This document shows positions 113 to 21,740 of a stretch of DNA of 64,000 nt, one piece after another. A program made the translations under genes and the position numbers. Numbering within the stretch: position 1 is the stretch's first letter; every line of letters begins with the position of its first letter. The DNA is from Dictyobacter arantiisoli (GTDB lineage Bacteria > Chloroflexota > Ktedonobacteria > Ktedonobacterales > Ktedonobacteraceae), in contig NZ_BIXY01000029.1 in the NCBI RefSeq assembly GCF_008326305.1, forward strand, positions 1 through 64,000, written 5' to 3'. The notes below the pieces were generated by a model that searched no databases, was not told where the DNA came from, and saw nothing but the letters and a program-made list of their open reading frames with translations.

Positions 113-610
113 TCAGGAGAATAATGGGGTATAAAAATCTTGCATCCAGCGTTCCTGCGTTTCATCTCCCGCTGAGGTGACGGTGATGGAGAAATCGGGA
201 TCGATTGTATGGGTCAGACGATGAATTAATGCAGCAATATAATGCGTCTTCCCAGTGGCACGACCACCGATAATCGCGATCACTTTTTGTTCACATTGCT
301 CGATATTAGATGGAAGCGCATAGTGGCATTTGGGACAGAGGCGCGTGGTACTGACAACCTGGCAGGAGCTACAAAGAAGCTCATACGGTACCGTGAAGTG
401 AAAGATACTCTTTGATTTTTTTGGTAGTGGTAGTAGTACACGGCCCATAATGATGCGGTTTGTCCCTCGACTCCGCGCGTATTCGTTGTCGTTTCCCTTG
501 CTGGTACAACTGGGATTGATACAACGAAAATGTACATCCTGTAAGGTGAAGTGCGAGAAACAGTAAGGGCAAGTTATTTGTTGATGCGCCTGGGAAAGCG
601 AATTTTTCAT
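113..610 (-). pseudogene. Truncated zinc-ribbon/P-loop GTPase (paralogue of the 2430-3572 gene)
   Basis: The 165 residues carry zinc-ribbon cysteine pairs at Cys14/17, Cys30/35, Cys80/83 and Cys92/95, then a P-loop (GGRATGKT, residues 115-122) followed by HYIAALI. This matches the front half of the GTPase at 2430-3572, which has cysteine clusters, then GDGSAGKS and HYIASCI. The homologue continues for about 240 residues beyond this point, including G3 and G4 motifs. This copy instead meets an in-frame TGA at 113-115 right beside a probable insertion-sequence end. It therefore looks like a 5' remnant that cannot hydrolyse GTP. A short functional zinc-ribbon protein cannot be excluded. Confidence 0.6.
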
Positions 611-2146: not shown

Positions 2147-2429
2147 CTCATATTTCGATCCAGGCGCAGTATGTCCGGTTTTATCCGTATCTCGGTTCTG
2201 GGTCTACCTGATCCAAAACCCGCATGTAAAACGGTGTTCAATCCCTACCTGGCAATAATGCTTGAGTTTAAAATCAGGCTGCTTTGCCAGAGCGGGATTG
2301 GTTGTAGTTCAAATGCTCAAAAATCTGGCGATTGAGCGTGAGAGGGTATTTCTCAAAAACCGTCTGAAATTTAAGCAAACGATACTTATGTATGTATATG
2401 GATATGTATATATTGAAGAGGTTCCTGGT

Positions 2430-3572
2430 ATGGCATTTATTGATCCCTGGCGTAAATTAAGCTGCCCGAGTTGCGGCACTCAATTTTATCCTGGCTATTG
2501 TGATATTGTTTCCGCTCTGCCCAATGGCACGGTACTTAAAAAAGCCCCCACATCCAGTATCCAACGTATGCTGGCGCGTGTTTGGATTACTACTGTTAAA
2601 GGCCAAAAATACGTGAAGCAGATGGCTGGCCGACAATGTCCTAATCCGGCCTGTAACAGTATCTTGCCTCCAAATATTGAGCAGGCTGATAATTATCTTA
2701 TTGCTCTGATTGGGGATGGCTCGGCGGGGAAAAGCCATTATATCGCTTCTTGTATTCAGTTGCTCAAGCAGCGCGAGACTTTAGAACTGATTGGTTGTAG
2801 TAAAATTGTGGGTTGGGGAAATACCGATACTACCTACAAAAACAAATATTACAATTACGTCTTTGGCAAATTACAGCAGATTCCTCTCACGCCCCGGGCT
2901 ACTTCTGAATTGAATGAGCCGCTGATTTATGAGCTTATCTTTCCGAAAGAGGCTGGACGCAAGCGAGCGAAAATTGTAAATCTCTTCTTCTATGATTCCT
3001 CGGGTGAAGATCTGGCGGACCAGTCGCGGATGGTCCAGTATAGCTCATATGTCTTGAAGGCGTCGGCATTTATCTTCCTGGCCGATCCTCTGACGATGCC
3101 CAATATCGTGAAATCCTTGCCAGATAATCTCAAGCCGCAGGTCGTCCGGGAGAGTAGCTCGGCGGATATGTTAAATCGGATTACAGAAACGTTTCGGTTG
3201 GGCATGGGTCTGAGTTCGGGTGAGGCCATTGATGTTCCTGTTGCCGTGACGCTCTCGAAGTCGGATCTGCTCAAATATGTGGTGCGTTCTGAGATATCCT
3301 CGACGCAGTTTTTGTATGAGGGTACATCCACCAATCGCTTAAATACTGATGATTATGCCACGATTGATAGCGAGGTACGCAATTTTATCCTGCGTTTTGG
3401 AGATAAGGTCCTGATCCAATCCAGCAAGCTCTTCAATACTGTCTCCTTCTTCGCCGTTTCCGCGACCGGTTGGGCAGCTAAAGATGGTCATTATCCTGTG
3501 ATTGAATCATTGCGCTGTCTTGATCCCCTGCTCTGGATTTTGTGGAAACTCCAGGTTATCGATGCCGATTAG
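2430..3572 (+). CDS. Zinc-ribbon TRAFAC-type GTPase (double-GTPase-2-like)
   Basis: ATG 2430 is chosen because GAAGAGG lies 7 nt upstream and the zinc ribbon begins at once; the frame is open 168 bp further up. The 380 residues show Cys12/Cys15 and a CPNPAC cluster at 70-75, the G1 P-loop GDGSAGKS at 95-102, a G3-like DSSG at 189-192 and a G4-like SKSD at 276-279. Those motifs indicate GTP binding. The zinc ribbon plus this layout resembles the GTPases found beside GAP1 proteins. It is followed after 50 bp by a GAP1-N2-type protein, the expected partner. The likely role is a GTP-gated switch controlling the cluster; that function is inferred. Confidence 0.75.
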   Translation: MAFIDPWRKLSCPSCGTQFYPGYCDIVSALPNGTVLKKAPTSSIQRMLARVWITTVKGQKYVKQMAGRQCPNPACNSILPPNIEQADNYLIALIGDGSAGKSHYIASCIQLLKQRETLELIGCSKIVGWGNTDTTYKNKYYNYVFGKLQQIPLTPRATSELNEPLIYELIFPKEAGRKRAKIVNLFFYDSSGEDLADQSRMVQYSSYVLKASAFIFLADPLTMPNIVKSLPDNLKPQVVRESSSADMLNRITETFRLGMGLSSGEAIDVPVAVTLSKSDLLKYVVRSEISSTQFLYEGTSTNRLNTDDYATIDSEVRNFILRFGDKVLIQSSKLFNTVSFFAVSATGWAAKDGHYPVIESLRCLDPLLWILWKLQVIDAD

Positions 3573-3622
3573 GATGGCTTGAAAGAAACGAAGCATACAG
3601 AGAAGATTAGGAAGGATGGATC

Positions 3623-5935
3623 ATGGATCAACTCTGGTATACCTGGTCGACCACTGGTCTTGGCAGTATCACCGGGCACAGGGTGCGTGCTGCCTCACAG
3701 AACTTGCTCAATCTCCACAGCGAGTGGTATCAGGAGCTCGAAAAGTATTTACACTATACCTTGCCGGAAGGTGTTAATCCCTATGAGAGTACCACTGCCT
3801 CGTCTCCCTATGGTCTGGCGTATATCGTGACCCTTGCCGGCCCGTGTCTGCTGCAGCGTGTCTACGGCGGTAAGGATGCCTATGGGCGGGCGGGGGTCTC
3901 CTTTATCCATGCGCTCACAAACCTGAATGATATCACTCCGCTTGAGGCGATTGATTCCTGGCATTCCCCGTTCTGGCAGATCCATGACAGTTTACCTGTT
4001 GAACAGATAGAATTGCCAGCAGTACATAAGACACAGCTTCATGCTGGATCACTCAGTGTAGCCGCTATCATGCGCGAAGCTGTCAATCAGAGGCACTACC
4101 GGGAACACCTGGAGATGCTGGTCAATGCCTATCTCACGTTTGAAGGTTGGGAAAATCTCTATCTGGAAACCTATGCGGAAGAGGGTATTCATAGCGCGAC
4201 CGAGCGCAATGCCGAGCTGATCTGGGGATTGCTGCATTGCTTACCGCCGTATCTAGCCAGACAGGCTACCTTTAGTACCTATGAAGACAGGTTAGAGGAC
4301 AGTCCAGCTACGCGGATTGTCGCGACCTGCTTTTCGACGCTGGAAGGTTTGCAACATGAGCCTTCGCATCCAGGTTATGTCTTGAAATGGGCTTATGGAC
4401 GTGATGGCGCTCTGCTACTACAAGAGGCTGGCGTGCCACAGGATCAGGCTTCTATGAAGCTATTAAGCGCGCATCGCTTGCAGGCGTGTGCCAGCTATGC
4501 CCATGATATAGTAGAGAAATTCCTGGCTGACAACCGCCAGGATCAAAAGACCATACATGCCTTTTATAAGATGACACTGCTCAAGAGGGTCAATAATCTA
4601 TCTTCTTTTCTGGATACCTATCAGCTCTTTTCGACCCGGCAATCCCATACAGCTCAACTATTCACAGTAGATGAGCATCTGGCTACTGTGCATCCCTACT
4701 ACGCGCAGAAGCTGGCAGCGCAGATCGATGAGGACGCCGCACAATCGACAGTCAACCATCTGCTCTCCCTCGTTGAGGTGGATGATCAGGACGACATATC
4801 CGCGATTGAACAACTCTTACAATTACAGACCTTGCTTCCTCAAGAAATCGAAGCTCTCTTGCTGCAATCCACTTTGAGTGCAGAAGAATTACATTCTCTC
4901 TTTCTGAAGCACTGGGAATATCTCTTATTGGTCATCCCAGATAAAGCTGTTACAGGCTATTGCATTGAACATTTTTTGCTCTGTAAGCTGGATCTATCTA
5001 TTCTCAAAGCAGCCGGGACAGGCGCACTGCTGGATACTATTACTCGAAACAACCGGTGTTATGCAGATGATCAGAAGCGTGCCAGAGATTGGCTTCACAT
5101 CCGTACAACATTGTTTAGTGGTGCGAATAATCATGCTCGTGAACTGGTGACAAATGAGTCAGAATTGCATGCTCTGGCAGGAGCTATTGCCAATCTACAG
5201 CTACAAAAAGATATTGATTACTGGGAATGCTTACTGAAATATCTTATTCCAGTAATCTGGGATGATGAGGATATAGCAAGTGTACTCACCATTCTCGCGC
5301 CAGTCTCTTTGTTCGCAGTCAAAACGGATTCAGTGATTGTGGATTTTATCGAAAATCTCTCTATATATGCTGCTCAAGCAGAGCAGGTAAAAAACAATTC
5401 CAGACGCTTGCTTCTGTATATGCAACATGCTATTGCGAATGTTTTGTATCAGGAAGATAAAGATTATAACATCAAATCTCATGAAGTTTTGCCGCGTATC
5501 TTTCACTTGCTGTTACAGTATAGTGATAAAAAAACCATTGATGAGCTTAATAATAAGCAGCGTTGGCACATCAGAGATTGGAAGATCTGGAAGATGTATC
5601 GTACGGGCGCCTACCCTGCTGGTTCGGGTGGTCTCAAACAGTTTTTTTCCAGGAGCAAAGAAACAGTGAAAATACCAGCTATCAGGCCCGATGTTCTGCC
5701 ATCCAGGAGATCGCAACTACAGGCTCCGGTAGCTTCTGTAGGACTGGTTAATGTACTCAAGCAGCCTCCCGTGACCTCGATAGCTCCTGCCAGAGCGTAT
5801 ACAGATACATCTGTTGCGCACATAGCCCCGGCTCCAAAGTATCGAGCTCCTCAAGGAAGCCATGTATCCTTTCCCCTATCACAAGAGGATAAGCAATCCT
5901 TGTCTGATCAGCCTGGGATCATCCATGAGCCGTGA
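3623..5935 (+). CDS. GTPase-associated protein, GAP1-N2 type
   Basis: This 770-residue protein opens with an aromatic strand (WYTWST), a glycine-rich turn and VRAAS near residues 20-25, then YGRAG at 87-91 with His96. The same spaced motif (YGRPG 85-89, His94) occurs in the protein encoded at 8158-9072, so the two share an N-terminal fold. This agrees with the GAP1-N2 and GAP1-N1 families of GTPase-associated proteins. The middle is largely helical; the last 110 residues are a Pro/Ala/Ser-rich tail without clear structure. An AAGGA motif 8 nt before ATG 3623 supports the start. It follows the GTPase by 50 bp and probably acts as its adaptor or regulator. No catalytic motif is visible. Confidence 0.7.
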   Translation: MDQLWYTWSTTGLGSITGHRVRAASQNLLNLHSEWYQELEKYLHYTLPEGVNPYESTTASSPYGLAYIVTLAGPCLLQRVYGGKDAYGRAGVSFIHALTNLNDITPLEAIDSWHSPFWQIHDSLPVEQIELPAVHKTQLHAGSLSVAAIMREAVNQRHYREHLEMLVNAYLTFEGWENLYLETYAEEGIHSATERNAELIWGLLHCLPPYLARQATFSTYEDRLEDSPATRIVATCFSTLEGLQHEPSHPGYVLKWAYGRDGALLLQEAGVPQDQASMKLLSAHRLQACASYAHDIVEKFLADNRQDQKTIHAFYKMTLLKRVNNLSSFLDTYQLFSTRQSHTAQLFTVDEHLATVHPYYAQKLAAQIDEDAAQSTVNHLLSLVEVDDQDDISAIEQLLQLQTLLPQEIEALLLQSTLSAEELHSLFLKHWEYLLLVIPDKAVTGYCIEHFLLCKLDLSILKAAGTGALLDTITRNNRCYADDQKRARDWLHIRTTLFSGANNHARELVTNESELHALAGAIANLQLQKDIDYWECLLKYLIPVIWDDEDIASVLTILAPVSLFAVKTDSVIVDFIENLSIYAAQAEQVKNNSRRLLLYMQHAIANVLYQEDKDYNIKSHEVLPRIFHLLLQYSDKKTIDELNNKQRWHIRDWKIWKMYRTGAYPAGSGGLKQFFSRSKETVKIPAIRPDVLPSRRSQLQAPVASVGLVNVLKQPPVTSIAPARAYTDTSVAHIAPAPKYRAPQGSHVSFPLSQEDKQSLSDQPGIIHEP

Positions 5936-6035
5936 GCCGTGAGAATGGCAAGGTGAAGTTATAAGAATACGTTATTTTGGATATTTATACATAACAAAAA
6001 TGAACAATGAGATGTGAAGGAGTATTGGATTATTT

Positions 6036-7283
6036 ATGTTAAACGATAAAGGTGTTGTAATTGATCAGCTGGCTGCTCTGGCTGACATGATTAAACCTGG
6101 AGATGAAAAGGGCGCTGAGCGTTTGCATGAATTACGCGATGCGGTCGCTGATGGTAAGTACGCGGATGCCTGGTCTGGCAATAATATTTATAAAATGATC
6201 GATATCGATGCGCTTGTCAATCGTTTCCGCGTGCAGCAAAGGGTGGATAATCTGGCTGTATGGATTGATGCTGTTAGAAACATTTGTATTTTTCTACCGC
6301 TTTTCTTTACCTGGTTAGCTATTTCAAAGGCTATTCCCGCCTACTACACGCTCGTCACTCAGTATCCAAAAAATAGCACAACGCCTTTCCTGCAATTATG
6401 GCAGGGTGGTTTTAATGACACTGTTCCCTGGTACGATAGATTGGCTGGTGTTGCCTCTATCGATGTTGGTCTTATCCTTGTGATTGTTCTTTTAACAGTT
6501 TCTTCCTCCATTTTGAACAATTACTTCCAATTGAAGCAAGATCGGAAGGCGGAGCTGTTACGTGATGATCTGGCGCATGCGCTGGCAGGTGCCACGCTCT
6601 TCCTCTCGATCCGCAATCGCTCGCAGCCGGTCAACTTTGTTGATCGCTTCAATACGGTCGTGGATAACTTTACTACGATGGTGGCTGGCTTTGAAGCGCA
6701 GATGAAGTCTGAGCGCGAGGAAATGTCACAATTGATCAAGCGCCAGAAGGAAGAATTTGCCCTCTTCAACTCCTTTAAAGCGTCGCTGGTCACAAGCATG
6801 GATAATGTCGCGTCCTCGATCCGCGATCTCGATCAGTCAAATAAGGTCTTGAACACGACTGTCGATCAGCTTGTTACGCCGACGCAGGAGACGGTCGGTC
6901 AGCAGAAAGACATGTTGACGATTTCCGGTCATATTCAGCAGCAATTGACACGGCAGGCGGACGCGCAAGAAGAAGTTGTCAGGCAACAAAACCTCTGGGG
7001 CGAGAAGCTCAATAACGTGCTGGTGGTCCTCGATGGCACTGTCAACGAAGCGAGAACCCTGGCTGGCAGTATCTCCCACTATACCGATGAGCAGAAGGAA
7101 CTGGTCCGAGAACTGCAAGTTGAGCACAATGCACAGAGACAACTGGTCACCAATATGATCGACCATACGACGGTGCTGCACCACATGACCGAAAAAGTTG
7201 ATGCAAGTGCGAACAACATCAGCGGCGCAACTGTTAACATAAGTGATATTGCACGGCGGATTGCAGCTAATATACCTGCCTGA
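6036..7283 (+). CDS. Membrane protein with long C-terminal coiled coil (ZorA-like partner, tentative)
   Basis: The 415-residue product has two clear hydrophobic segments (about 82-104 and 140-161). A long polar tail (about 215-400) is rich in Gln, Glu, Lys and spaced hydrophobics, as in chemoreceptor or ZorA coiled coils. It is followed after 37 bp by a protein with a MotB/ZorB-like single membrane helix. In Zorya defence systems and MotAB/ExbBD motors the stator subunit precedes the Asp-bearing subunit in the same way, and ZorA has a long cytoplasmic helical tail. Only two membrane helices are evident, fewer than in MotA or ExbB, so homology is uncertain. A GGAG lies 13 nt before ATG 6036, rather far. 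Confidence 0.5.
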   Translation: MLNDKGVVIDQLAALADMIKPGDEKGAERLHELRDAVADGKYADAWSGNNIYKMIDIDALVNRFRVQQRVDNLAVWIDAVRNICIFLPLFFTWLAISKAIPAYYTLVTQYPKNSTTPFLQLWQGGFNDTVPWYDRLAGVASIDVGLILVIVLLTVSSSILNNYFQLKQDRKAELLRDDLAHALAGATLFLSIRNRSQPVNFVDRFNTVVDNFTTMVAGFEAQMKSEREEMSQLIKRQKEEFALFNSFKASLVTSMDNVASSIRDLDQSNKVLNTTVDQLVTPTQETVGQQKDMLTISGHIQQQLTRQADAQEEVVRQQNLWGEKLNNVLVVLDGTVNEARTLAGSISHYTDEQKELVRELQVEHNAQRQLVTNMIDHTTVLHHMTEKVDASANNISGATVNISDIARRIAANIPA

Positions 7284-7320
7284 GGGGTAAGCGAGCAAGT
7301 GAGAAAAGAGAGGATAAATA

Positions 7321-8136
7321 ATGCTGCGTCCCGTTCAAAATAGTCCCGTTCTGCTGGCTGGTTGGCTTTTTGCCGACTTGTTCCTTGGCTTGATGGTGAT
7401 CTTTCTGGCCGCTATTCCTGGTGTGCCACCACCCTTGCCTGCTGCGCCACCCAGGCTGATCGTGTCCCCGCTGACGGCCCGACCTTCCAATGAGCAGGAA
7501 TGTTCGGCTGGTAATGTTAATACACCGCGCTGTGTCGGCCAGTTGATGCTCTCGGAAACGAGTGCTTCGAAGGTGCCCGTGAAGTGGTCGCTGGGAAGCG
7601 ATATCAGCGATACTATTCACTATAGTTATACTGTTGGCGGGATAAAGTATACGCAGACCGATGGAACCATCCATCCCGGCGAAACGATTACCATTCATCT
7701 ATCGGCCGTGCCCTGTCAGAACGGCTCTTTCATGTTCACTGGAACCGCCAATGCCGCGCCGGTGACCGCCTTCTGGAAGTGTACTGCCCGTCCGGATCGC
7801 CTGGAGACATCCTACAAGCCGATGCGCTTCGCCAATGAGGATACGCAGGGCCTTCTGGACGGCAACCAGGATGCGATCAATAAATTGAAGCACGATATTG
7901 AAGCGCGCCCGGAGTTGCGCGGTCGGCGCGTCGGCCTGGTTATCGTTGAGGCGGGTACGGATGATAACAATGTTGGACGGGCGCAAAATGTCGCCAACAA
8001 GGTCTATGCGCTGCTGGGAGACATGGGCAGAAAAGGCTTTGCGCCCTTTGCTGATGCTGTACCCTATCAACCGCTTTTCAATACAGCCGAGACCAATGAT
8101 GTCGTTCTTATCGACGTGTATCTCTTTAAAATATAA
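7321..8136 (+). CDS. Single-pass membrane protein with intramembrane Asp and OmpA-like C-terminus (ZorB/MotB-like)
   Basis: The 271 residues start with a membrane helix at about 10-32 containing Asp19 within ADLFLGLMVIF, closely resembling the proton-carrying helix of MotB, ExbD and ZorB. A proline-rich linker and a beta-rich domain with Cys pairs follow. The C-terminal 90 residues (VGLVIVEAGTDD, then N-x-x-RAQNVA) resemble the peptidoglycan-binding OmpA/MotB fold. The likely role is the cell-wall-anchored half of a proton-driven stator with the preceding gene as partner. AGAGGA 6 nt upstream supports the start. Its stop lies only 21 bp from the stop of the convergent GAP1-N1 gene. Confidence 0.6.
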   Translation: MLRPVQNSPVLLAGWLFADLFLGLMVIFLAAIPGVPPPLPAAPPRLIVSPLTARPSNEQECSAGNVNTPRCVGQLMLSETSASKVPVKWSLGSDISDTIHYSYTVGGIKYTQTDGTIHPGETITIHLSAVPCQNGSFMFTGTANAAPVTAFWKCTARPDRLETSYKPMRFANEDTQGLLDGNQDAINKLKHDIEARPELRGRRVGLVIVEAGTDDNNVGRAQNVANKVYALLGDMGRKGFAPFADAVPYQPLFNTAETNDVVLIDVYLFKI

Positions 8137-8157
8137 ATGATTGCTTTAATGCGCCAC

Positions 8158-9072
8158 CTACGCAGATATCCATGTTGCGGCAAGCTGATCCAGTTCACTA
8201 TCGATACGGGCGTGGGCCGCGCATTGGTCATAGTGAGCCTCAAAGAAAGGGAGCAGGATTTCTTCATATAGTTCTTCACTGGCGATTTTTTTGAGCAGGC
8301 GTGTATAGGCTGTATCCTCTCCCTGGCTCATTTTTCCGCTGGTGGCGTTGAGGATAAAGTAACTGTGGTAGTCGCTGGCGTCGGGTTGAAATTGCGCCTC
8401 GGCTACGCAGCCGGTGATCGTAAATGGGGATTGCCTGGGATCATGATGATAGGTGGTAAAGCTGAGCAGTGGACGATAGGCGGGTGGCAGCAGACAGCTG
8501 AGTGCGGCGATCCATAGCGCGACGTTGTCCGCGCTATCAATAATAATAATTGGCCTGACACGCTCCTCCATATGGATTACCGTGGACATCAGGGCCGCGA
8601 GGATCTGCCGTGCTGACTCTTTTTGGAGCAACTCCCAGACCTGTTCGATCTCGAATGAGGGATCTATCTCCATTTCTGATAGCGCTGGCAATTCCGCATG
8701 TTTGCTACTGAAGCTCGTGCACCAGAAGGGACTTCTCCAGAAGAAGATCGGGGGAATGCTGGTGAATAGATCCGGTGGCATGGCGAGCGAATGGGCGAAA
8801 AAGTTGCCCGGTCGCCCATAGTTGTCATTGCCACAGGATTGGCTGTGGATCAACAGACAACTCTCAGGATTTTGATAGTAGTAGCGCAAGGCGATAGGAT
8901 GGCGCTCAATCTCATATTCATTCATCCCTTTTGGGATACGATAGCCGAGCAGTCTTTCAATTTGTTGCTGATCGGCTGGCTCAAGGTCGGCGGACCTCGC
9001 AAGCATCTGAAATCCTCCTCGCGCATTTTTGACACTGTTATATGATGTATAGTAGTGTTGTTGAACCGCCAT
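8158..9072 (-). CDS. GTPase-associated protein, GAP1-N1 type
   Basis: ATG 9072 is preferred over the longer frame (to 9168): AGAGAGGAT lies about 10 nt upstream and the conserved region begins directly (HYYTSY). The 304-residue product has FQMLARS at about 21-27 and YGRPGNFFAHSL at 85-96, a pattern shared with the GAP1-N2-type protein at 3623. Later it has hydrophobic strands (RPIIIIDSAD, PLLSFTTYHHD) typical of the GAP1-N1 family. It ends the minus-strand set after GrpE, two Hsp70s and the J-like protein. It presumably links the chaperone module to the GTPase encoded on the other strand. The pairing of an N1 and an N2 type suggests a heteromeric complex; that is inference. Confidence 0.65.
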   Translation of the reverse strand: MAVQQHYYTSYNSVKNARGGFQMLARSADLEPADQQQIERLLGYRIPKGMNEYEIERHPIALRYYYQNPESCLLIHSQSCGNDNYGRPGNFFAHSLAMPPDLFTSIPPIFFWRSPFWCTSFSSKHAELPALSEMEIDPSFEIEQVWELLQKESARQILAALMSTVIHMEERVRPIIIIDSADNVALWIAALSCLLPPAYRPLLSFTTYHHDPRQSPFTITGCVAEAQFQPDASDYHSYFILNATSGKMSQGEDTAYTRLLKKIASEELYEEILLPFFEAHYDQCAAHARIDSELDQLAATWISA

Positions 9073-9103
9073 CTTTTTATCTGATCCTCTCTTCAATACC
9101 TGT

Positions 9104-12085
9104 TTAATCGAGCCTGAGTGTTGTATCGCTGGGATGCTGGATCTTGAGATAGTCGTAGGCGCTATCATCCTCTACATACAATTTGCTGAAGGTGCGCCCG
9201 CTATATTTTCTGTCTGGTAGTGGGAAACTGAGCTCTTTTTTGATAGAGATAGGACCTTCGAGCTGTAAAATTCTTTCTCCATCCGTCTTTTTTGCCGGCA
9301 GATGGTCCCGCCGTGCGATCAGCAGGATGGTCGGTAGCTCTCCTGGCGTGAGCGTGCGAATATGCAGCGTGCGTTTCTGGCTGAAGAGGGCTTTCTTGAT
9401 TTCATAGGTCAACGCCAGCTTGTTAACCAGCCTGGCCTGTATATCGACGCCGGCAGAGGTAATGAGATGTTGGCCCTGACGGATCAGGTTGGTAACACGT
9501 ATGAAATAATCACATTGCTTTTCGCCACGAATATCCAGATAGCCTGCGTTCGCATATTCAGAACGTGTGATCGTACGTGAGAATTCCATCTTGCTATCCC
9601 CGGCCGCATATTTATAAGCTATCATGACCTCTCGACATTCTGACGGCCAATCCCAGCGTAAGCGCAGAACAGTCCCAAGATTCTCCACACTCAGGTTTTC
9701 AACCTCGTCAATACAGGCATAGTGGACCTCCGTGCCACAATAAGCCATTCGTCCGACACAGACGAATGGTGTATAGTAGCAACTGCCCTGGCTCGGCCAT
9801 TCATCGGTCAGGTTGTCGGATTGTCCCTCCAGGGTAGTTCCATAGCGTGCTAAATGCTCCATCGGAATGATTTTGCCGCTCTTCAATCCGCTACTCTGTT
9901 CACTTTTAAGTATGATGGCTTTGCCTTTAGATGGTGTTTTCCATTTGAGGTATACCTGATAGCCGTCCGCCTGTTTTTCATTGGTGATAGCCAGCTCGGT
10001 GATCAGGTCTGGTGGGGCTTCGGGCCGTGCTTTGATCACCTTTCCCGGCGAGGTCAGAATCTTTCCTTGATTGTTAAATTGGCTGTAGATCTTATAGTAA
10101 TAAATATGCTCATTCAGCACATCGGTATCGATCAGGCGCGCATTGTCTGTGAGTATGAGGCGCTGTCCATCCTCGATAGTATGAGGGGCCAGACGCTCTT
10201 TTCTAACTACAACGATGCTCTGCACGTTGGGAGGCGTGCTCCATTGTAAGATAACTTTTTGATGATCGACTTCTAGCAACTCATCCTGAATATCCTGTAT
10301 CAGGAAGATGGGCATGCTGAGCAGGGCTGGCTGTGTCGCAATAATCCCTTCACATTCAGTGAAGATGGTATAGTAGAGTGGAATGCCGATTTCCGCCTGG
10401 GTGTCGGTATAGGTTATAGCGCTCACTGTGGCGAGCAATGTACCATCCCTGGGCGTCGCGGGCTGTTTGTATGCCATTCGGATAATTTGATAGCGCACAC
10501 CCTGCGTAGGTGAAGGAAGCCAGTTGAGCGTGACCTGGGCATTATTGATACGCACGCTTAGCGCGCTTGCTGGTGTTGGCGGCATCTTGCTCAGCTGTTC
10601 GCGTGCTTCATGATCATCGCTACAAATAAGCAACGCCTGCCGATAAAGATCAGCTTGCTCTTCAGTGTTCCGGCTGGCCTGTGCCCTGTTGCGCAGACTG
10701 CCTGCTTGCCTTATTCTGGCATCAATCTCTTGCCCCAGGGATGCCGCGTTATCGATCTGTTCACGATTATCTTCAAGATAACGCTGTGCTGCGTAAAACT
10801 GATTGTGTCTGATGTAGGCATCCAGTTGTTGGCGGTATGGTTGCCGTTCCTGCCGCTTTTGGAGCAAAGCTGCACGCTCAAGGTTTATCGTTTGTACACG
10901 TTTGTCGCTTCTGGCTGGTTTCCAGAGCCTGGCCGCTTCATCTAATAATTCCAACTGAGCTTCTATACCCTGAGTATGTGGTAGCTTTTCGAGCAGATCA
11001 TCGACCCTGAAGCGATTCCCGACTGCGAAACCACAGGCGTTGCAACCGACAGCATCCGCCTTCACGTTTGTTCCACAATCAGGACAGGTTGTCAGCAGCT
11101 CATAATTACAATACTGACAAAACTTGTGCTCCGGCTCATTCATGTGGGCGCAATGCCCACAACGTTGCAATTTCTGCGCCTGTGGATTGGCAACTGGTAG
11201 CTCCAGTGTCCATGCACGCTGCCTCGCCAGTTCGATCAACTCATTCAGCGCCTCCTCATCATCCCAGCCAGCCTCGCGTGTACGTTCCAGCAATGCCTCT
11301 ACCTGTTTGAGCGTGACATGCTTGCGCGTGCCAGAGCTGATCGCATTTGAAAACTCCTTGAGGATGGCCTCAAGCTTGCGATAGCGAATACTCTCATCAT
11401 AGCGATGACGCTCCTCCGCCGTTTTGAAGATAACCATGGCTTTACCTGCCAGATGCTTTTTAGCATCAATTTCCGAGGATGGTTTTCTTTTCACCACATC
11501 ATTGTAAAGTGCCTCGGCTGCCTGGTACAGGATTTCATTGGAAGTGGTAGCATCCAGATTCAGGAGCTCGTAAAAGGTCTGCATATGCAATATGGATAGA
11601 TTGTTATTGATATCCTTAAATGTGGTCTCATTAAGGCGTTGCACAGGTGGTTTTGCGGCGTTTCCCGAGTTTGGGGCTGTGCTGATAGGGACGGTCAACA
11701 GCTTACGAATATCCTGCTCGGTGAGCAGAGGATATCTTTTGAGTAGCGCGTCAATCTCGTTTTGTTCGATATAACCTTTGGCTGTGATGAACTCTAGAGC
11801 CTTTGTCATCTCTGCCATTTCTTTGTCTCTGGCTCCGGTTTGCGCATTGCGAGCCTCTCTGGCCTGCTTTTCTCGTTCTGCTGGATTCTTTAGAATCTCA
11901 TAACCCTTTAGTTGCTCCAGCTTCTGTTTTGCCGCCTGGGCTGCTGATCCCACCCCATTCCTTTTACGGCTCCAATCATTGCGTCGCTGCCGTACTATTT
12001 GATCAAAATCCGCGTCACTCCAGGGTGCATCGGGATTGATCTCAAGCAGGATAAAATAATTGACTGCTGGTTGTGTGGTACTCAT
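9104..12085 (-). CDS. J-like/zinc-ribbon/FN3-repeat protein
   Basis: This 993-residue protein begins with a J-like helical region (about 7-75: NYFILLEINPDA, ending KLEQLKGYEIL). A second lies at about 168-232 (FYELLNLDATTS, ending EERHRYD). Both lack the His-Pro-Asp loop that J proteins use to stimulate Hsp70. Two zinc ribbons follow (Cys309/312/323/326 and Cys334/337/348/351), then a helical TPR-like stretch to about 500. Four or so fibronectin-III-like repeats fill most of the rest, with recurring strands such as VTLNWLPSP, VILQWSTPP and VYLKWKTPS. It sits between the Hsp70-vWA gene and the GAP1-N1 gene. It is probably a scaffold linking Hsp70s to a client or to GAP1; assignment as a working co-chaperone is doubtful. 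Confidence 0.7.
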   Translation of the reverse strand: MSTTQPAVNYFILLEINPDAPWSDADFDQIVRQRRNDWSRKRNGVGSAAQAAKQKLEQLKGYEILKNPAEREKQAREARNAQTGARDKEMAEMTKALEFITAKGYIEQNEIDALLKRYPLLTEQDIRKLLTVPISTAPNSGNAAKPPVQRLNETTFKDINNNLSILHMQTFYELLNLDATTSNEILYQAAEALYNDVVKRKPSSEIDAKKHLAGKAMVIFKTAEERHRYDESIRYRKLEAILKEFSNAISSGTRKHVTLKQVEALLERTREAGWDDEEALNELIELARQRAWTLELPVANPQAQKLQRCGHCAHMNEPEHKFCQYCNYELLTTCPDCGTNVKADAVGCNACGFAVGNRFRVDDLLEKLPHTQGIEAQLELLDEAARLWKPARSDKRVQTINLERAALLQKRQERQPYRQQLDAYIRHNQFYAAQRYLEDNREQIDNAASLGQEIDARIRQAGSLRNRAQASRNTEEQADLYRQALLICSDDHEAREQLSKMPPTPASALSVRINNAQVTLNWLPSPTQGVRYQIIRMAYKQPATPRDGTLLATVSAITYTDTQAEIGIPLYYTIFTECEGIIATQPALLSMPIFLIQDIQDELLEVDHQKVILQWSTPPNVQSIVVVRKERLAPHTIEDGQRLILTDNARLIDTDVLNEHIYYYKIYSQFNNQGKILTSPGKVIKARPEAPPDLITELAITNEKQADGYQVYLKWKTPSKGKAIILKSEQSSGLKSGKIIPMEHLARYGTTLEGQSDNLTDEWPSQGSCYYTPFVCVGRMAYCGTEVHYACIDEVENLSVENLGTVLRLRWDWPSECREVMIAYKYAAGDSKMEFSRTITRSEYANAGYLDIRGEKQCDYFIRVTNLIRQGQHLITSAGVDIQARLVNKLALTYEIKKALFSQKRTLHIRTLTPGELPTILLIARRDHLPAKKTDGERILQLEGPISIKKELSFPLPDRKYSGRTFSKLYVEDDSAYDYLKIQHPSDTTLRLD

Positions 12086-12139
12086 ATGCTTTCTATCTCT
12101 TGTCTCGTTGTTTGATTATGTATATATTTTTACTGGAAG

Positions 12140-14182
12140 CTATCTTGGTGCGGCTACAGCTATCTCCTGGGCGATGGTACTGAAGGTCGAGCTCAGATTC
12201 CCCAGATCTGTAAACAAGCTTTGTTTGGCTGAAGAGGCGATCTGGGAAAGAAAATGATGTCTCGCATTTCCGAAACCAACGGCGATAACCTCTATCTGCT
12301 CGCTGTGGCACTTTTTTGCCGCCTTGATCGCTTTCTCTGGATAGACCCAGGCTCCATCAGTGAGCACCAGCGCGTAGTGCAATCCTCTCTCATGCCTCAG
12401 CAGATCTGAGAGGTGTTTGAAGGGATGTCCGAGGTTGCCGGGTCCGGTCCGTCCAATGAGCAGTCCATCAATGGCTTGTTCAATTTTATGGGGATCTTTC
12501 GTGGCCTTAAGATCGATATATATTTCATTTGAGAAGGAGATGAGGCCAATCGAGGTATACTGTAGATCGCTATTCAGCACAAAATCGCGAGCAGCCTTCT
12601 GTGCTGCTCGCAGCGGCTTCCCTCTCATGCTTCCCGATAAATCGAAGGCGAGATAGACGGTGGATGGTTGCTGTGGTGCCTGTCTGGCTGGTGCCAGCAG
12701 GAAACGCTCCGGCACATCGGCTGGCAGATCTTCAATCTTCAGGAGCAGCGGACAGCCGGTGCTCTTTTCTGTAGCGGCAATGTTGACCACGCCATTTTTA
12801 TCATAGGTATAGGTGACATCAACCTCCGTCTCACTAATCGTGAGGTGGGGAAAGCCGCTAAAAGTATACAGGCCGAGGTAGGTACATTCCTGGGGATCAT
12901 CACTTTCGCTCTGGGTCAGGTAGACTTCCATCTTCGTCGTGCCGTCAGGTAAAAGTCGCATTTTAAAGGTTTTCGTGCGCTCAGTCGGAATAGTGAGATT
13001 TTTCTGAATGAGAAAGCTATTAATATAGCGCTCGTTATCAGGGCTTTCGGCAACCATACCCAGGCTGTGCGCTATCACATCGGTTGTTTTTTTGCGTCCA
13101 GCCAGATGGAAATGGGGCGCGTTTTTCTGGCGCTGCTCAAGCTCCATCACCGCCTGGATGGCTGCTCCCAGCGCGACCGCCTCGTCAGGATTGATCCCGC
13201 TCATGGGTGCCTTGCCTGACATCTGTTCGATGAATGTGCGTACAACCGGCATACGTGTTGAACCACCAACCGGCAGCACGCCATCGATATCAGCCCAGGT
13301 GAGCTGTTTGGCGGCCAGGACACGCTCGGTGAGGAGCTTTGTTTTCTCCATCAGATCGCGTGTGATCTCTTCGAAGTGGGAGCGCGTGACTGTATAGTTG
13401 CCCACATGCCCACCACCATGAATCCTGATGGGGGCGCTTTGTCGTAATGAGAGAGTATGTTTGAGCCGTTCGGCCTGCACGCTCAAATCATTTAATTCTT
13501 CATCATTGAGTTCAATGCCAAACTCATGCTCGAACTGGATTGCAAGATATTGAATCAGGCTATCATCCCAATCCTTACCACCCAGTTTATGATCGCCATC
13601 GGTCGCCTGTACGTTTAGTTCGGTATCTGTAATTTCAACCAGGGAAACGTCGAAGGTGCCACCACCCAGATCGTAGACAAGCACGCGCTGTGCCCGGGCA
13701 TGGGGACGCAGTCCATAGGCCAGGGCCGCCGCTGTTGGTTCACTGATGATCTTGAGTACATTCAGTCCGGCCTGTGTGCCTGCTTCAATTGTGGCAGTTC
13801 TTTGAAGATGGGTGAAGTAGGCGGGCACAGTGATTACAGCGTCGGTCACTGGTTGGTGTAAATGGACCTCGGCCTGTTCTTTTAATTGTCGCAGGACCAG
13901 GGTTGAAAGTTCGGTCGGCGTATAATCTTTATCGTAGAACGAGACCAGGAACTCGCTATCGCCCATGCTGCGCTTGAAAAAAGCAATGGTATCCTTATCT
14001 CCATTGGCCTGAGCCTCCTTCGCGCTTGCTCCGACAAGCGGGCCCTGGGGTGTAAATTGGATGACCGATGGGGTTGTGGATTTGCCATCCTGGTTCGGGA
14101 TGATTTCTGGTTTGCCCTCTGCATTGACATAAGCGATGACTGAATAGGTGGTTCCCAGATCGATACCGACAACAGTACTCAT
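12140..14182 (-). CDS. Hsp70 (DnaK-like) fused to a C-terminal vWA domain
   Basis: The 680-residue protein starts with an Hsp70 ATPase domain: GIDLGTTYSVIAY at the N-terminus, a YDLGGGTFDVS phosphate motif, and GGSTRMP in the adenosine site. A substrate-binding beta domain follows to about residue 500. In place of the alpha-helical lid there is a von Willebrand A domain from about 505. Its metal site (MIDAS) appears intact: Asp514, Ser516 and Ser518 in DLSGS, a Thr at about 579 and Asp609 in LVLTDG. GGAG 9 nt before ATG 14182 supports the start. It is separated from the upstream Hsp70 gene by a repeat element. The vWA domain probably gives metal-dependent partner binding, as in MoxR-vWA pairs. 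The fusion is unusual for DnaK. Confidence 0.85.
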   Translation of the reverse strand: MSTVVGIDLGTTYSVIAYVNAEGKPEIIPNQDGKSTTPSVIQFTPQGPLVGASAKEAQANGDKDTIAFFKRSMGDSEFLVSFYDKDYTPTELSTLVLRQLKEQAEVHLHQPVTDAVITVPAYFTHLQRTATIEAGTQAGLNVLKIISEPTAAALAYGLRPHARAQRVLVYDLGGGTFDVSLVEITDTELNVQATDGDHKLGGKDWDDSLIQYLAIQFEHEFGIELNDEELNDLSVQAERLKHTLSLRQSAPIRIHGGGHVGNYTVTRSHFEEITRDLMEKTKLLTERVLAAKQLTWADIDGVLPVGGSTRMPVVRTFIEQMSGKAPMSGINPDEAVALGAAIQAVMELEQRQKNAPHFHLAGRKKTTDVIAHSLGMVAESPDNERYINSFLIQKNLTIPTERTKTFKMRLLPDGTTKMEVYLTQSESDDPQECTYLGLYTFSGFPHLTISETEVDVTYTYDKNGVVNIAATEKSTGCPLLLKIEDLPADVPERFLLAPARQAPQQPSTVYLAFDLSGSMRGKPLRAAQKAARDFVLNSDLQYTSIGLISFSNEIYIDLKATKDPHKIEQAIDGLLIGRTGPGNLGHPFKHLSDLLRHERGLHYALVLTDGAWVYPEKAIKAAKKCHSEQIEVIAVGFGNARHHFLSQIASSAKQSLFTDLGNLSSTFSTIAQEIAVAAPR

Positions 14183-14562: not shown

Positions 14563-16230
14563 TCAGGAGATGACCAGGCGACTGGAGCGTTTCTTCGCTT
14601 CCGCAGCCTCTTCAGGGGTAATCCCGCGTGCTGTCTCGATGTCAATTTCAATGGAAACGTTGCTGACCGGTTCGCGTCCGACAATATGCAGGCGTCCTTC
14701 ACGATTAAGATTGAAGGTGACTTCGATGGGATGGTCGACTGGCAGGTTGGATGGTAGATGCAGCACAGCATTGCCGATCTCCTCACCCAATGTTAGATCC
14801 CTGAGCACATTTTCGGTTCCCTTATTCTCCAGGACCTTGAGTTCCACTGTTTCCTGCTCGGCAACTTCTGTATAGAAATTTTCAGTTTTATGGGCGGGCA
14901 ACTGATCATTTGCCAGGACGAGATTGTAGATAATGTCCTCGTGGGTACGTGGATCGAGCGCGATAATCCCAAAGCTGTGACTGGCAACGTTGGTGACGGA
15001 CATATCATTGTACTTTTTGACCGCGTGCAATTTCAATCCGCTATCGCGTGCTACCTCTTGTTGTGCCTGCTCTTTGATTGTTGTGGAGACGGTCTCAAGG
15101 TCAACCCTTTCCTCTTCTTGTCCGGTTAACTCGGCAACCTTAATCGTGATTTTCTCATCGATAGCCAGCTTGCGCCCATAGACAGCCGCGCCCTTCGCCA
15201 CCGCCTGATCTGGATCGAACATCTTAACGGGAATACTGAACTCAGCTTTGAGGCGTTCCGCAACCTGTAGCATCTTGCTCGAACCGCCTACCAGCAAGAT
15301 TTGATCGAAATGGTCATAGCCGCGCGCCCGTGCCGTCTGGATGGTTGCATTGGTAAATGCAATGGTTTGTTCAAGCAAAGAACTCGTCAATTCATCGAAT
15401 TTCTCGCGTGAGAGAGGAATGCCAATGCGTTTGCTGGCATGCGTGACAACCACATTTGTTTCTTTGCGGGCTGTCAACGCATGTTTTCCCACTTCAGCGC
15501 GCATCCATAAATCCTGAAGTGTCTCTTCATTATCCCCGGGATCGTCCTCGGAAGCCGCCTCAGCCATCCATTGATCCGCCAGATAGCCTACCACAGCTTC
15601 ATCCCAGTTGCGTCCGCCGAGAGTATGATCGCCACCGGTTGCCACTACTGTAATGGCGCCATTTTTAATCTCAATAACCGTAATATCGAAGGTGCCACCA
15701 CCCAGATCATAGACCAGTACCACCTGATCCTGTTCGTTTTGCAGTCCATAGGTCACGGCAGCGGCTGTCGGCTCATTGATAATCTCTCTGACATTGAAAT
15801 TCGCGATCTCACCGGCCCGTGTGGTCGCATCACGTTCAGCGATACCGAAGTAGGCAGGACAGGTGATCACTACATCCTTGACTGGAATGCCGGTGGCTTG
15901 CTCGGCATCATCTGCCAGCTTGCGTAGGATATAGGATGAGATTTCCTCGGGGGTATAGTCGAAGCCATTGTAGTTGAAGCGCCATTCATTCTCGCCCATG
16001 TGGCGTTTGACCAGTTCACAGACCTGCGCGGGAGCCAGGACCGCGCTATTCTTCGCCTCTTTGCCGACAATACGACTCTCATCCTCAAACTGCACCACGG
16101 ATGGAGTGGTTAAATCGCCTTCCATATTGGCAATAACGACGGGCTTACCAAATTCATCGACATAGGCTATGCAAGAATAGGTGGTACCAAGATCGATACC
16201 AAAGACGGTTGATACTGTTTGATCGCTCAC
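14563..16230 (-). CDS. DnaK-like Hsp70 lacking the C-terminal lid
   Basis: The 555-residue protein has Hsp70 signatures: FGIDLGTTYSCIAY near the start, VYDLGGGTFDITV, and ILLVGGSSKM. A beta substrate-binding domain runs to about residue 525. A short charged C-terminus (EEAAEAKKRSSR) follows. Housekeeping DnaK is about 600-640 residues and has a helical lid that is missing here. GTG 16230 is taken as the start because AGGAGA lies 5-6 nt upstream; a GTG at 16245 is the alternative. It follows grpE by 126 bp and precedes the Hsp70-vWA gene. It is probably a specialised chaperone for the GAP1/GTPase locus rather than the cell's main DnaK. Confidence 0.85.
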   Translation of the reverse strand: MSDQTVSTVFGIDLGTTYSCIAYVDEFGKPVVIANMEGDLTTPSVVQFEDESRIVGKEAKNSAVLAPAQVCELVKRHMGENEWRFNYNGFDYTPEEISSYILRKLADDAEQATGIPVKDVVITCPAYFGIAERDATTRAGEIANFNVREIINEPTAAAVTYGLQNEQDQVVLVYDLGGGTFDITVIEIKNGAITVVATGGDHTLGGRNWDEAVVGYLADQWMAEAASEDDPGDNEETLQDLWMRAEVGKHALTARKETNVVVTHASKRIGIPLSREKFDELTSSLLEQTIAFTNATIQTARARGYDHFDQILLVGGSSKMLQVAERLKAEFSIPVKMFDPDQAVAKGAAVYGRKLAIDEKITIKVAELTGQEEERVDLETVSTTIKEQAQQEVARDSGLKLHAVKKYNDMSVTNVASHSFGIIALDPRTHEDIIYNLVLANDQLPAHKTENFYTEVAEQETVELKVLENKGTENVLRDLTLGEEIGNAVLHLPSNLPVDHPIEVTFNLNREGRLHIVGREPVSNVSIEIDIETARGITPEEAAEAKKRSSRLVIS

Positions 16231-16356
16231 TTTTTGTCTCCTCACGAGGGTATAAATAAAATAGTATGCTTTGTATTGAGTACAGATAAATAAACGTTTC
16301 TTGTCGGGCTATTTTAAATGGTACCCGGCAAGCTCAGAAATAATGCGTGTGCTTCT

Positions 16357-17157
16357 TTATGATGTTGTTGTATAGCGATACGTTTCAACAATTTCGGGGC
16401 GTAAGATGCGATTTTCGTAGCGAAAGCCTTTGCGTAGCCGACGTGCGATATGTCTATCCAGTGTCACATCATGAGTTGGGATAACGTGTAAAACGCGCTG
16501 CTTCTGCGTAACAAAGATCTCCTCTTCAATCTCAAAAGCTTCAACGCCATTATTGCTCAGCATATCTTCTACGGTCTTTGAGAAGGATTGGATATTCTTA
16601 ATAATCGTCTCATCCAGATCTGGAAATTTTTTACCCATACTCTCGATAATGCTATTCATATCATCGTAGAGCGTGATGAGTTCCATAAATAATGGACGCA
16701 GGATCTTGAAATGCAGTCCTTCGCGATAGCCCTGTAATTCGTTGTGCAGGACATCGATCAAGCGTTCTTTGCTCTCATCATACTTGACCTTGGTATCAAA
16801 ATCCTGCTTCAATAGCTGCATTTCCGCCAATACCTGCTGGACTCCCTGAACTGTTTCAGTCAGTAAATCCGCTACATATGGTTCTGTTAACACAACAGGC
16901 TCGCTTGCCCCTGTAATCTCAGCTTGAATTTCAGCGGCAGTTTCAGGTTGATCTATAGCAGGAGCCTCAGCTTGAATTTCAGTGGCAGTTTCAGGTTGTA
17001 TCTCTGTTGAAAGCTCGGATGTGGTCTCAGAAGGGGATACAGGTGCATTATTTATATCTGGGATAGTTGCTGTTGGGTGGTGTGTGGTAAGGATCTCTGC
17101 TATAATGGGGGAATTTGAAAGAATATCAGCAAGGCTGTCTGATGGATCTTCTAGCAT
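16357..17157 (-). CDS. grpE: GrpE nucleotide-exchange factor for the linked Hsp70s
   Basis: The 266-residue product ends with a GrpE beta domain (LRKGFRYENRILRPEIVETYRY region) preceded by the long dimerisation helix (about 100-200). The N-terminal third is acidic and low in complexity, with a near-repeat of QPETATEIQAE and QPETAAEIQAE. ATG 17157 is preferred because GAGG lies 7 nt upstream; an ATG at 17199 has its purine run touching the codon. GrpE swaps ADP for ATP on Hsp70. As first gene of the set it implies that the two downstream Hsp70s have a dedicated exchange factor. A promoter with near-consensus boxes lies about 110 bp upstream. Confidence 0.85.
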   Translation of the reverse strand: MLEDPSDSLADILSNSPIIAEILTTHHPTATIPDINNAPVSPSETTSELSTEIQPETATEIQAEAPAIDQPETAAEIQAEITGASEPVVLTEPYVADLLTETVQGVQQVLAEMQLLKQDFDTKVKYDESKERLIDVLHNELQGYREGLHFKILRPLFMELITLYDDMNSIIESMGKKFPDLDETIIKNIQSFSKTVEDMLSNNGVEAFEIEEEIFVTQKQRVLHVIPTHDVTLDRHIARRLRKGFRYENRILRPEIVETYRYTTTS

Positions 17158-17268
17158 GTATGAACCTCGTCCTATAAATGAAGGAAAATAAGATGGCATT
17201 CCTTCGTGCTTAAATTTTTGTGTAATGAAAATAGATTTAATAGTTTATGGGATAAGTAATACTTTAAT

Positions 17269-19120: not shown

Positions 19121-20125
19121 ATGCAGCAAGAAATGCAAGACCAACCTATCGTTTCCTCCAGACAGGAGCAGAAGACAGCGATTGCGATTGCTAATCCTAC
19201 CGCGGGTAGCTATACCCAGCGGCAGTCACAAATCGAGGACACGATGCGCTATCTCCGGGAGCACGGCTGGGATATCGAGCTCAAGTTGACGCAGGCTCAG
19301 GGTGATGCTGGTAAATTCACCCACGAAGCTGTCCAGCAAGGCCTGGATGTGGTGGTGGCCATCGGTGGCGATGGCACAATCAATGAAGTGATCCAGGAAT
19401 TGGCTGGCAGCAATACCGCGCTGGCTGTCCTGCCTGGCGGTACTGTCAATGTCTGGGCGCGCGAAACTGGTATCTCTCTCGATATTATGGAGGCTCGTGA
19501 GGTACTCTTGCATGGACAAATGTGCCGTATCGATCTGGGAAAAGTCAACGAGCGTTACTTTCTTCTGATGGCTACTATCGGCTTCGATGCTGAGGTGACC
19601 CACGCCGTTGAGAAGAATCCTGTCAAGCGCCTGGGTGTGATCGCGTATGTGGTTTGGGGTACCTGTTTCGGTTTTGGCTATCGTGATTTCCATGCTGACT
19701 TAAAAAGTGAAGGAAAAAACAAACACTTCCATGCGTTACAGCTCGTGTTTGGCAATACTCAGTTATATGCAGGTAAGATCAAATTTACGGAGCATGCTAA
19801 ATTCGATGATGGCAAATTGGATGTCTGTGTTGTGCGTAGCACGACCATACTGGGTCGTCTGGGTATTCTGGTTGATTTTGTCTTACGACGTCCCGAGCGT
19901 AGGCAATGGGTTTATACAGAAATGGCTAATACCATTGAGGTTCGTACCAGCAAAGCCGTCGCGATCCAGGTTGATGGTGATCCCGCTGAGCATACCACAG
20001 CCAATGGATCTCCGACAGTGATTGCTGTCGTCCCGGATGCGCTCAAGGTGCTCGTACCGCAACACCTGCCAGAGGCATTATTCTGTGCACACAAAACCCA
20101 TTCCCTGACTGCTGACAAGGCATAG
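19121..20125 (+). CDS. Diacylglycerol kinase / YegS-like lipid kinase
   Basis: The 334-residue protein has the family's nucleotide-binding GGDGT motif (about residues 82-86, in AIGGDGTINEV). It then has LAVLPGGTVNVWAR, matching the conserved Pro-Gly-Gly-Thr substrate loop. The later half contains GNTQLYAG and a beta sandwich ending with QVDGDPAE, also typical. Such enzymes phosphorylate diacylglycerol or related lipids at the membrane. ATG 19121 is chosen since AGGATGAG lies just upstream; an ATG at 19112 has no ribosome site. Its 3' end overlaps the end of the convergent propeller gene by 83 bp. Confidence 0.85.
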   Translation: MQQEMQDQPIVSSRQEQKTAIAIANPTAGSYTQRQSQIEDTMRYLREHGWDIELKLTQAQGDAGKFTHEAVQQGLDVVVAIGGDGTINEVIQELAGSNTALAVLPGGTVNVWARETGISLDIMEAREVLLHGQMCRIDLGKVNERYFLLMATIGFDAEVTHAVEKNPVKRLGVIAYVVWGTCFGFGYRDFHADLKSEGKNKHFHALQLVFGNTQLYAGKIKFTEHAKFDDGKLDVCVVRSTTILGRLGILVDFVLRRPERRQWVYTEMANTIEVRTSKAVAIQVDGDPAEHTTANGSPTVIAVVPDALKVLVPQHLPEALFCAHKTHSLTADKA

Positions 20126-21458: not shown

Positions 21459-21740
21459 AAACCTCACACTTACCTCCACTTCCCCTGTAATCAAGCTCGA
21501 CATACCTTCATATAGAAGTTTCTACCAGACCTCAACACTACAATTACCGGCCATCGTCTCTCGCAAGAGGCACATAATCTGTCTTAATGTACAGAACTAT
21601 TTTAGCAAAAAATGCTTCATAAGTGATTGTAATACGTAAAAGATATAGAAGATAGATGCACTCTTCCTTTTATGTGGTCTCTTACGCTTATTTTTACAGC
21701 TACAGTTACAGCACAGTACAGGTGACATTGATACATTGTC

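Follow-up and report, generated by a model that had tools for sequence, protein, structure and literature searches.

The window examined here is the 64,000-nucleotide stretch at positions 1 to 64,000 of contig NZ_BIXY01000029.1 of Dictyobacter arantiisoli (GCF_008326305.1). It carries two adjacent genes on the + strand, gene A (6036..7283, 415 aa) and gene B (7321..8136, 271 aa), which lie beside genes for a DO-GTPase and a GAP1 protein. An earlier reading from the letters alone, called here the sequence-only reading, had described gene B as a MotB/ZorB-like protein and gene A as its coiled-coil membrane partner. Both open reading frames (ORFs) lie exactly where that reading had placed them. 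We followed up the pair by profile searches, structure models and comparison of gene neighbourhoods.

Gene B and its conserved aspartate

The AlphaFold2 (AF2) model of gene B has a mean pLDDT (predicted local distance difference test) of 87. It shows a transmembrane (TM) helix at residues 9-31 (7345..7413, including GWLFADLFLGLMVIFLA), a beta-rich middle and a C-terminal domain. The positive-inside rule predicts an N-in/C-out orientation. Asp19 (codon gac, 7375..7377) lies in the TM helix and is invariant in 15 members of the Ktedonobacteria group. A search of contigs for the GWLFADL pattern was not used as evidence of motif conservation because the search itself required the motif. The conservation of Asp19 is nevertheless free of this bias, since 13 further relatives of gene B were found in 400 Chloroflexota genomes through the gene A profile alone; GWL[FYW]AD is present in 13/13. 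Gene B thus has the N-terminal TM helix with a conserved Asp that marks the B subunit of a 5:2 motor, and Asp19 would be the ion-binding residue.

To place the helix, we compared its profile with 177,635 distinct PDB sequences. At E up to 10 there were five matches, all ExbD/TolR, and each aligned its functional Asp on Asp19. These matches are singly weak (E 0.47-2.9, not significant), and what the search suggests comes from the fact that no family besides ExbD/TolR was listed. The profile was also scored on 211 non-family proteins from the set of membrane ORFs of the compared loci. ExbD/TolR ranked first to sixth behind the family's own members, whereas MotB scored poorly despite the common motif. 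Apart from family members, only ExbD, MotB and one relative of gene A in the same set carried the pattern [FYW]xD[LIVMF]x7F. Comparison by hhalign gave P = 2e-4 for ExbD/TolR and P = 0.017 for MotB. Judged by sequence, the gene B helix is closest to ExbD/TolR, not to MotB/ZorB. The sequence-only reading was right to single out Asp19, but its label of the helix as MotB-type has to be revised. The likeness is that of the TM helix alone: the Pfam ExbD domain (PF02472) was not found in gene B, and it was absent from the 201 Chloroflexota genomes searched. No profile in the Pfam, NCBIfam and PADLOC scans matches gene B.

The outer part of gene B includes an Ig/PapD-like domain at residues 40-156 (7438..7788; VIA Z up to 9.7), which had gone unnoticed before. 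It occurs only in some Ktedonobacteria members, and short gene B members lack it in the alignments. The C-terminal periplasmic domain (7816..8127) has the order b166-a183-b204-a218-b252-b262 (βαβαββ) in the AF2 model, which is the order of the OmpA-like fold. The proposed OmpA-like end agrees with the model in strand order. The label is based on the modelled topology only, because no profile matches, hhalign against the C-termini of Pal and MotB gave no significant result, and the gene B C-terminus lacks the NxxLSxxRA-type peptidoglycan motif of E. coli Pal. A Foldseek search with the gene B model hardly tested the C-terminal domain, as the Ig-like middle domain filled the list.

Gene A as a candidate ring subunit

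Hydropathy and the AF2 model agree on two TM helices in gene A (H87-109 and H136-196), followed by the long helical tail that the sequence-only reading had noticed. A helical cytoplasmic domain (residues 5-85) precedes TM1 (about 83-109). The outside loop carries FLxLWQxGF (118-126), and TM2 (about 139-158) continues into a long cytoplasmic helix and the tail. Residues 1-190 are mostly modelled at a mean pLDDT of about 90 or more. There are 3.2 Lys plus Arg per 20 residues before TM1, 1.4 in the loop and 3.9 after TM2, and from this bias both ends are predicted to be inside (N-in/C-in). In type II ZorA, too, the membrane part falls within roughly the first 100 residues (PMC11890865).

In ZorAB and MotAB structures, a Ser/Thr ring from the A subunits encircles the Asp of the B subunit (PMC11890865). 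Gene A has a candidate for such a ring on each TM helix. Position 92 in TM1 (codon 6309..6311), which would face Asp19, is Thr in 40/42 sequences and Ser in 2/42. Position 154 in TM2 (codon 6495..6497) is Thr in 32, Ser in 7 and Ile in 3 of the 42. Thr92, Thr154 and Asp19 of gene B each appear to lie about ten residues from the cytoplasmic helix end, as judged from sequence. Once paralogues without a gene B are removed, T92 and W93 are invariant in 39/39 rows. Four such paralogues (L067-L070), one of them on contig C65 of the source genome, have lost W93 of the TW motif in TM1, and no gene B was found beside them. They come after two proteins of ~690-830 aa without a Pfam match.

When the gene A model was compared by VIA-align, three ExbB structures matched with Z 6.7-6.8 and a root-mean-square deviation of 4.0-4.7 over 157-159 residues. 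Residues 1-199 of gene A fall on ExbB 64-233, that is, on TM2, TM3 and the cytoplasmic helices of an ExbB without its TM1. This weak match of a model is supportive only. Foldseek gave no match at E under 0.001, with ExbB chain 5zfp_B at rank 21 (E 1.5), and the gene A profile fails to pick out ExbB, TolQ or MotA among the membrane ORFs. Matches of full-length gene A in the PDB were coiled-coil look-alikes; ZorA chains 8vvn and 8vvi were among them through the tail only (E 0.003-0.011) and were not used.

Gene neighbourhood and distribution of the pair

Upstream of gene A on the + strand are a DO-GTPase2 gene (2262..3572; PF19993, E 1.4e-8) and a GAP1 gene (3623..5935, 770 aa, GAP1-N2 plus GAP1-M; PF20013, E 1.5e-9; PF20014 over cut-off), so the GAP1 surroundings proposed earlier are real. 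The DO-GTPase has N-terminal CxxC pairs that look Zn-ribbon-like from the sequence; its listed TTG start is probably too early, with an ATG at about 2430. Facing these genes, on the - strand, are a second, short GAP1-N2/M protein (8158..9168; PF20013, E 7.7e-26), a 993 aa protein with a double zinc ribbon (9104..12085; PF12773, E 7.4e-7), an HSP70-vWA fusion (12140..14182) and HSP70 (14563..16245), both assigned by Pfam, and GrpE (16357..17199; PF01025, E 1.3e-11). By eye the 993 aa protein also has a J-like N-terminus and FnIII-like repeats, whereas only the zinc ribbons are above the Pfam cut-off.

A DO-GTPase and GAP1-N2/M, as in a GTPase-centric GAP1-N2 system, were thus found over cut-off (PF19993, PF20013, PF20014), together with the HSP70 and GrpE genes of the HSP70 theme. 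The locus resembles GAP1-N2/DO-GTPase systems in having all these genes and the zinc-ribbon/J-like protein in one place, and it fits the second theme (HSP70/GrpE) of Kaur et al. 2020 (PMC7159879). In the main text of that paper MotB, ExbB and TolQ do not occur, and OmpA is given for iSTAND systems only (PMC7159879). Going by that main text, the stator pair had not been described as part of GAP1-N2 systems.

Relatives of genes A and B stand side by side in Ktedonobacteria. Almost every locus examined keeps this adjacency, in Chloroflexota and, sporadically, in Actinomycetota. The gene A profile matched 32/400 Chloroflexota genomes. In 13/13 further loci from this set gene B is present, and in all but two it adjoins or overlaps gene A: in L162 it lies some 7 kb away at the end of the locus, and in L164 only a remnant of gene A is left, in one ORF with gene B. 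Among 396 Actinomycetota genomes chosen for spread, the query genome gave the only match, and the pair is accordingly rare in this phylum; since scoring was limited to a few top candidates in each genome, this figure is a lower bound. The GWLFADL pattern scan of named genomes, which is biased for the motif, added Streptosporangiales, Streptomyces, Pseudonocardiaceae and Micromonosporaceae, as well as Chloroflexia, Anaerolineae and Thermomicrobia. In a group of Chloroflexota families, gene B accompanies a short-tailed gene A of about 240-260 aa (L156, L157, L158, L166, L167 and L168). The L157 pair is near an O-antigen ligase gene, and short-tailed pairs may serve the envelope rather than defence.

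Gene context was counted in 63 A-B loci of one gene A family tree, window included. GAP1 and/or DO-GTPase neighbours are found in 16/63, in both Ktedonobacteria and Actinomycetota. Directly downstream of A-B in 11/63 is a vWA-PP2C-kinase-BrxD-BrxHI set, and two more loci have kinase-BrxD-BrxHI. The 11 operons, headed by the A-B pair, lie in Streptosporangiales and an Actinomadura (L089:8148-17022, L090, L091, L093, L094, L102, L111, L116, L117, L119 and L123). In Sphaerisporangium, PADLOC identified BrxD (E 7e-175) and BrxHI (E 0), with genes for a type IIG-like methyltransferase and a DrmD-like helicase upstream. The C-terminus of the kinase-like protein of these operons resembles that of PglZ (PADLOC E 1.4e-18). 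We did not find this operon described in the literature searched. A Streptomyces locus has the order DO-GTPase, GAP1-like protein, A, B and then CHAT with EAD1; here neither the DO-GTPase match nor the EAD1 match reaches its Pfam cut-off, and the GAP1-like protein was named from the similarity of its sequence pattern. Elsewhere the neighbours are tubulin with a kinase, or PP2C with kinase-WD40.

In the gene A tree the contexts cluster by clade (11 changes against a shuffled mean of 30). The GAP1 context occurs in two clades, one containing Ktedonobacteria and one actinobacterial, and is therefore either old or gained more than once. The A-B pair forms a module of its own, which occurs repeatedly next to DO-GTPase/GAP1 or vWA-PP2C-kinase-BrxD-BrxHI genes and also by itself.

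Several further observations concern the window itself. Its GAP1 gene at 3623-5935 encodes 770 aa, against 1157 aa for L051 and 1142 aa for L052, both close relatives, and an internal stretch of ~190 aa and a C-terminal one of ~200 aa are absent. Just 5' of the DO-GTPase gene, 902-2146 encodes a 414 aa multi-helix membrane protein with no profile match and no relative in the loci compared. At 113-610 (-) is a short DO-GTPase-like fragment with a zinc ribbon, a P-loop and weak PF19975/PF19993 matches, possibly a broken second GTPase. Farther away are a Virginiamycin B lyase family protein (20043-21503, -) and a 969 aa NACHT-domain protein (54415-57324, -), which adjoins a LanM-type lanthipeptide synthetase (DUF4135 plus LANC_like; 57784-61119, +).

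A stator-like reading and its alternatives

Published ZorAB complexes are 5:2 motors in which the Ser/Thr ring round the Asp, the cytoplasmic ZorA tail and the periplasmic ZorB domain are all needed for defence (PMC11890865). The A-B pair shares this layout, as had been proposed: a stator-like A with a cytoplasmic helical tail and a B with an essential-looking Asp in its N-terminal helix and a periplasmic domain, in defence-type surroundings. It differs from Zorya in the gene B helix, which is closer to ExbD/TolR, in the missing canonical peptidoglycan motif and in its partner genes. ZorA and ZorB families were not listed for genes A and B in the NCBIfam and PADLOC scans, a search of the query genome with NF033914 (antiphage_ZorA_1) gave no match, and the PADLOC scan of the neighbours (902-2143 and 2262-14182) showed no ZorC, ZorD or ZorE. 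Because of the missing ZorA/B matches and the missing ZorC-E, the pair is, on sequence criteria, not Zorya. The sequence-only reading had also put the GTPase and GAP1 genes in the place of ZorC-E; ZorC-E are indeed missing from the scanned neighbours, but the pair is a separate module and no replacement within a Zorya operon is seen.

With ExbB-ExbD and TolQ-TolR the pair shares a gene B helix of the FxDxxLxLxxIF type, with an Asp-Phe spacing of 9. It differs in that gene A has no counterpart of ExbB TM1 and no significant similarity in sequence, gene B lacks the ExbD periplasmic domain, and no TonB or TolA is seen with the pair. Like MotB, gene B combines an [FY]AD[LF] helix with a downstream domain whose modelled strand order is OmpA-like; unlike MotA, which has four TM helices, gene A has two. 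Identity with a flagellar stator was rejected, as neither PF01618 nor PF13677 gave a match in this genome or in its family. The Streptosporangiales operons that end in BrxD and BrxHI are like BREX/Pgl, whereas the window locus has neither gene. No stator term was found in the text of a 2026 BREX survey (PMC12839542), nor was a stator found in the literature searched on GAP1, TerY/vWA-PP2C or BREX-type systems. The pair is best called a new, unnamed stator-like family, which would work like ZorAB or ExbBD and which fails the profile marks of Zorya, ExbD and MotAB.

We consider it probable, at roughly 0.6, that the products of genes A and B assemble into a stator-like complex of the type seen in 5:2 ion-driven motors, with an outer domain that reads the envelope and a tail that acts on the GTPase/GAP1 machinery. 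Gene A subunits would form a pentameric membrane ring, with TM1 and TM2 corresponding to ExbB TM2 and TM3 and with Thr92 and Thr154 facing inward. Two gene B helices would be the axle inside the ring and carry Asp19. The outer domain of gene B may sense the state of the cell envelope and, on release, let ions flow. The resulting movement, perhaps rotation, or conformational change would then travel down the bundled cytoplasmic gene A tails to the DO-GTPase/GAP1 machinery, in the manner proposed for Zorya. Together with HSP70-vWA, HSP70 and GrpE, this machinery would trigger a response whose most likely target is phage or envelope damage. The analysis itself shows the conserved pair, its invariant Asp19, the conservation at Thr92 and Thr154, a predicted topology and a gene context that recurs; the 5:2 stoichiometry, the flow of ions, the rotation, direct contact with GAP1 or the GTPase and the role in defence are inferred.

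Several results weigh against this proposal. Gene A matched no ZorA, MotA or ExbB profile in the Pfam, NCBIfam and PADLOC scans, and a PDB search with the TM part of gene A gave no match. Gene A against ExbB by hhalign is not significant (P = 0.12); the best alignment, with that limit, puts T92 on a conserved Thr of ExbB TM2. Many unrelated helical proteins match the gene A model alike or better, and the ExbB Z of 6.8 is within the chance range for helical proteins. The tail is modelled at low confidence (pLDDT 40-75). In gene B, the peptidoglycan motif is missing. Several A-B pairs lie apart from recognised signalling or defence genes, and of the loci counted, 28/63 have none of the neighbours described above in the stretch examined. 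The literature found holds no experimental proof of function for GAP1-N2 systems. The sequence-only reading was to be given up if gene A had no stator relation and Asp19 was not conserved; since Asp19 is conserved, this refutation does not apply.

These points leave room for other explanations. The pair could be a stator-like machine for ordinary envelope work, such as cell-wall remodelling, division or differentiation, with the GTPase and kinase neighbours regulating it and no immune role. The hosts are filamentous or multicellular, GAP1-N2 systems correlate with a multicellular habit (Kaur et al. 2020, PMC7159879), and short-tailed pairs have neighbours such as O-antigen ligase rather than defence genes. 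We nevertheless regard this as unlikely, since the patchy spread of the pair (the 32/400 and single-genome counts above) is unusual for a housekeeping part, and BrxD-BrxHI, restriction-type and CHAT/EAD1 neighbours recur. Slightly less likely still is a non-conducting scaffold or sensor, in which the role of Asp19 and the Thr residues is to bind the helices to one another, and the complex tethers GAP1/GTPase to the membrane without ion flow. Ion flux cannot be shown from sequence, the poorly modelled tail could be such a tether, and gene B has no canonical motif to anchor a working stator. An absolutely conserved acidic residue midway along a TM helix, with Ser/Thr on both gene A helices, is on the other hand what the ion path of ExbBD, MotAB and ZorAB needs (PMC11890865).

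The shortness of the gene B similarity (about 17-25 residues), the weak structural match and the lack of a significant sequence relation of gene A to stators would also suit a convergent helix beside an unrelated coiled-coil membrane adaptor. This is very improbable in our judgement, because two independent lines agree: the PDB search with the gene B helix listed only ExbD/TolR, and gene A has an ExbB-like overall match, with a predicted N-in/C-in orientation that agrees with it. The stator reading offers simple point mutants, D19N, T92A and T154A.

More tentatively, and with the odds somewhat against it, the pair may represent a lineage of motor-driven immunity additional to Zorya. A minimal ion-powered stator of two genes would then be an interchangeable envelope-sensing front end, plugged into DO-GTPase/GAP1/HSP70, vWA-PP2C-kinase-BrxD-BrxHI and possibly CHAT/EAD1 systems, which it would drive or license mechanically via the tail. 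GAP1/DO-GTPase systems were predicted from comparative genomics and have no known trigger. If the stator reading is true, the module would supply one: an envelope change that is read and powered by the ion gradient. With the A-B pair also heading BrxD-BrxHI operons, an ion motor would be linked to another, unrelated type of defence machinery, and Zorya would be one example of a general design rather than an isolated oddity. The presence of the pair in GTPase-controlled and BREX-like suspected defence clusters of soil bacteria suggests that motor-driven immunity is wider than Zorya alone.
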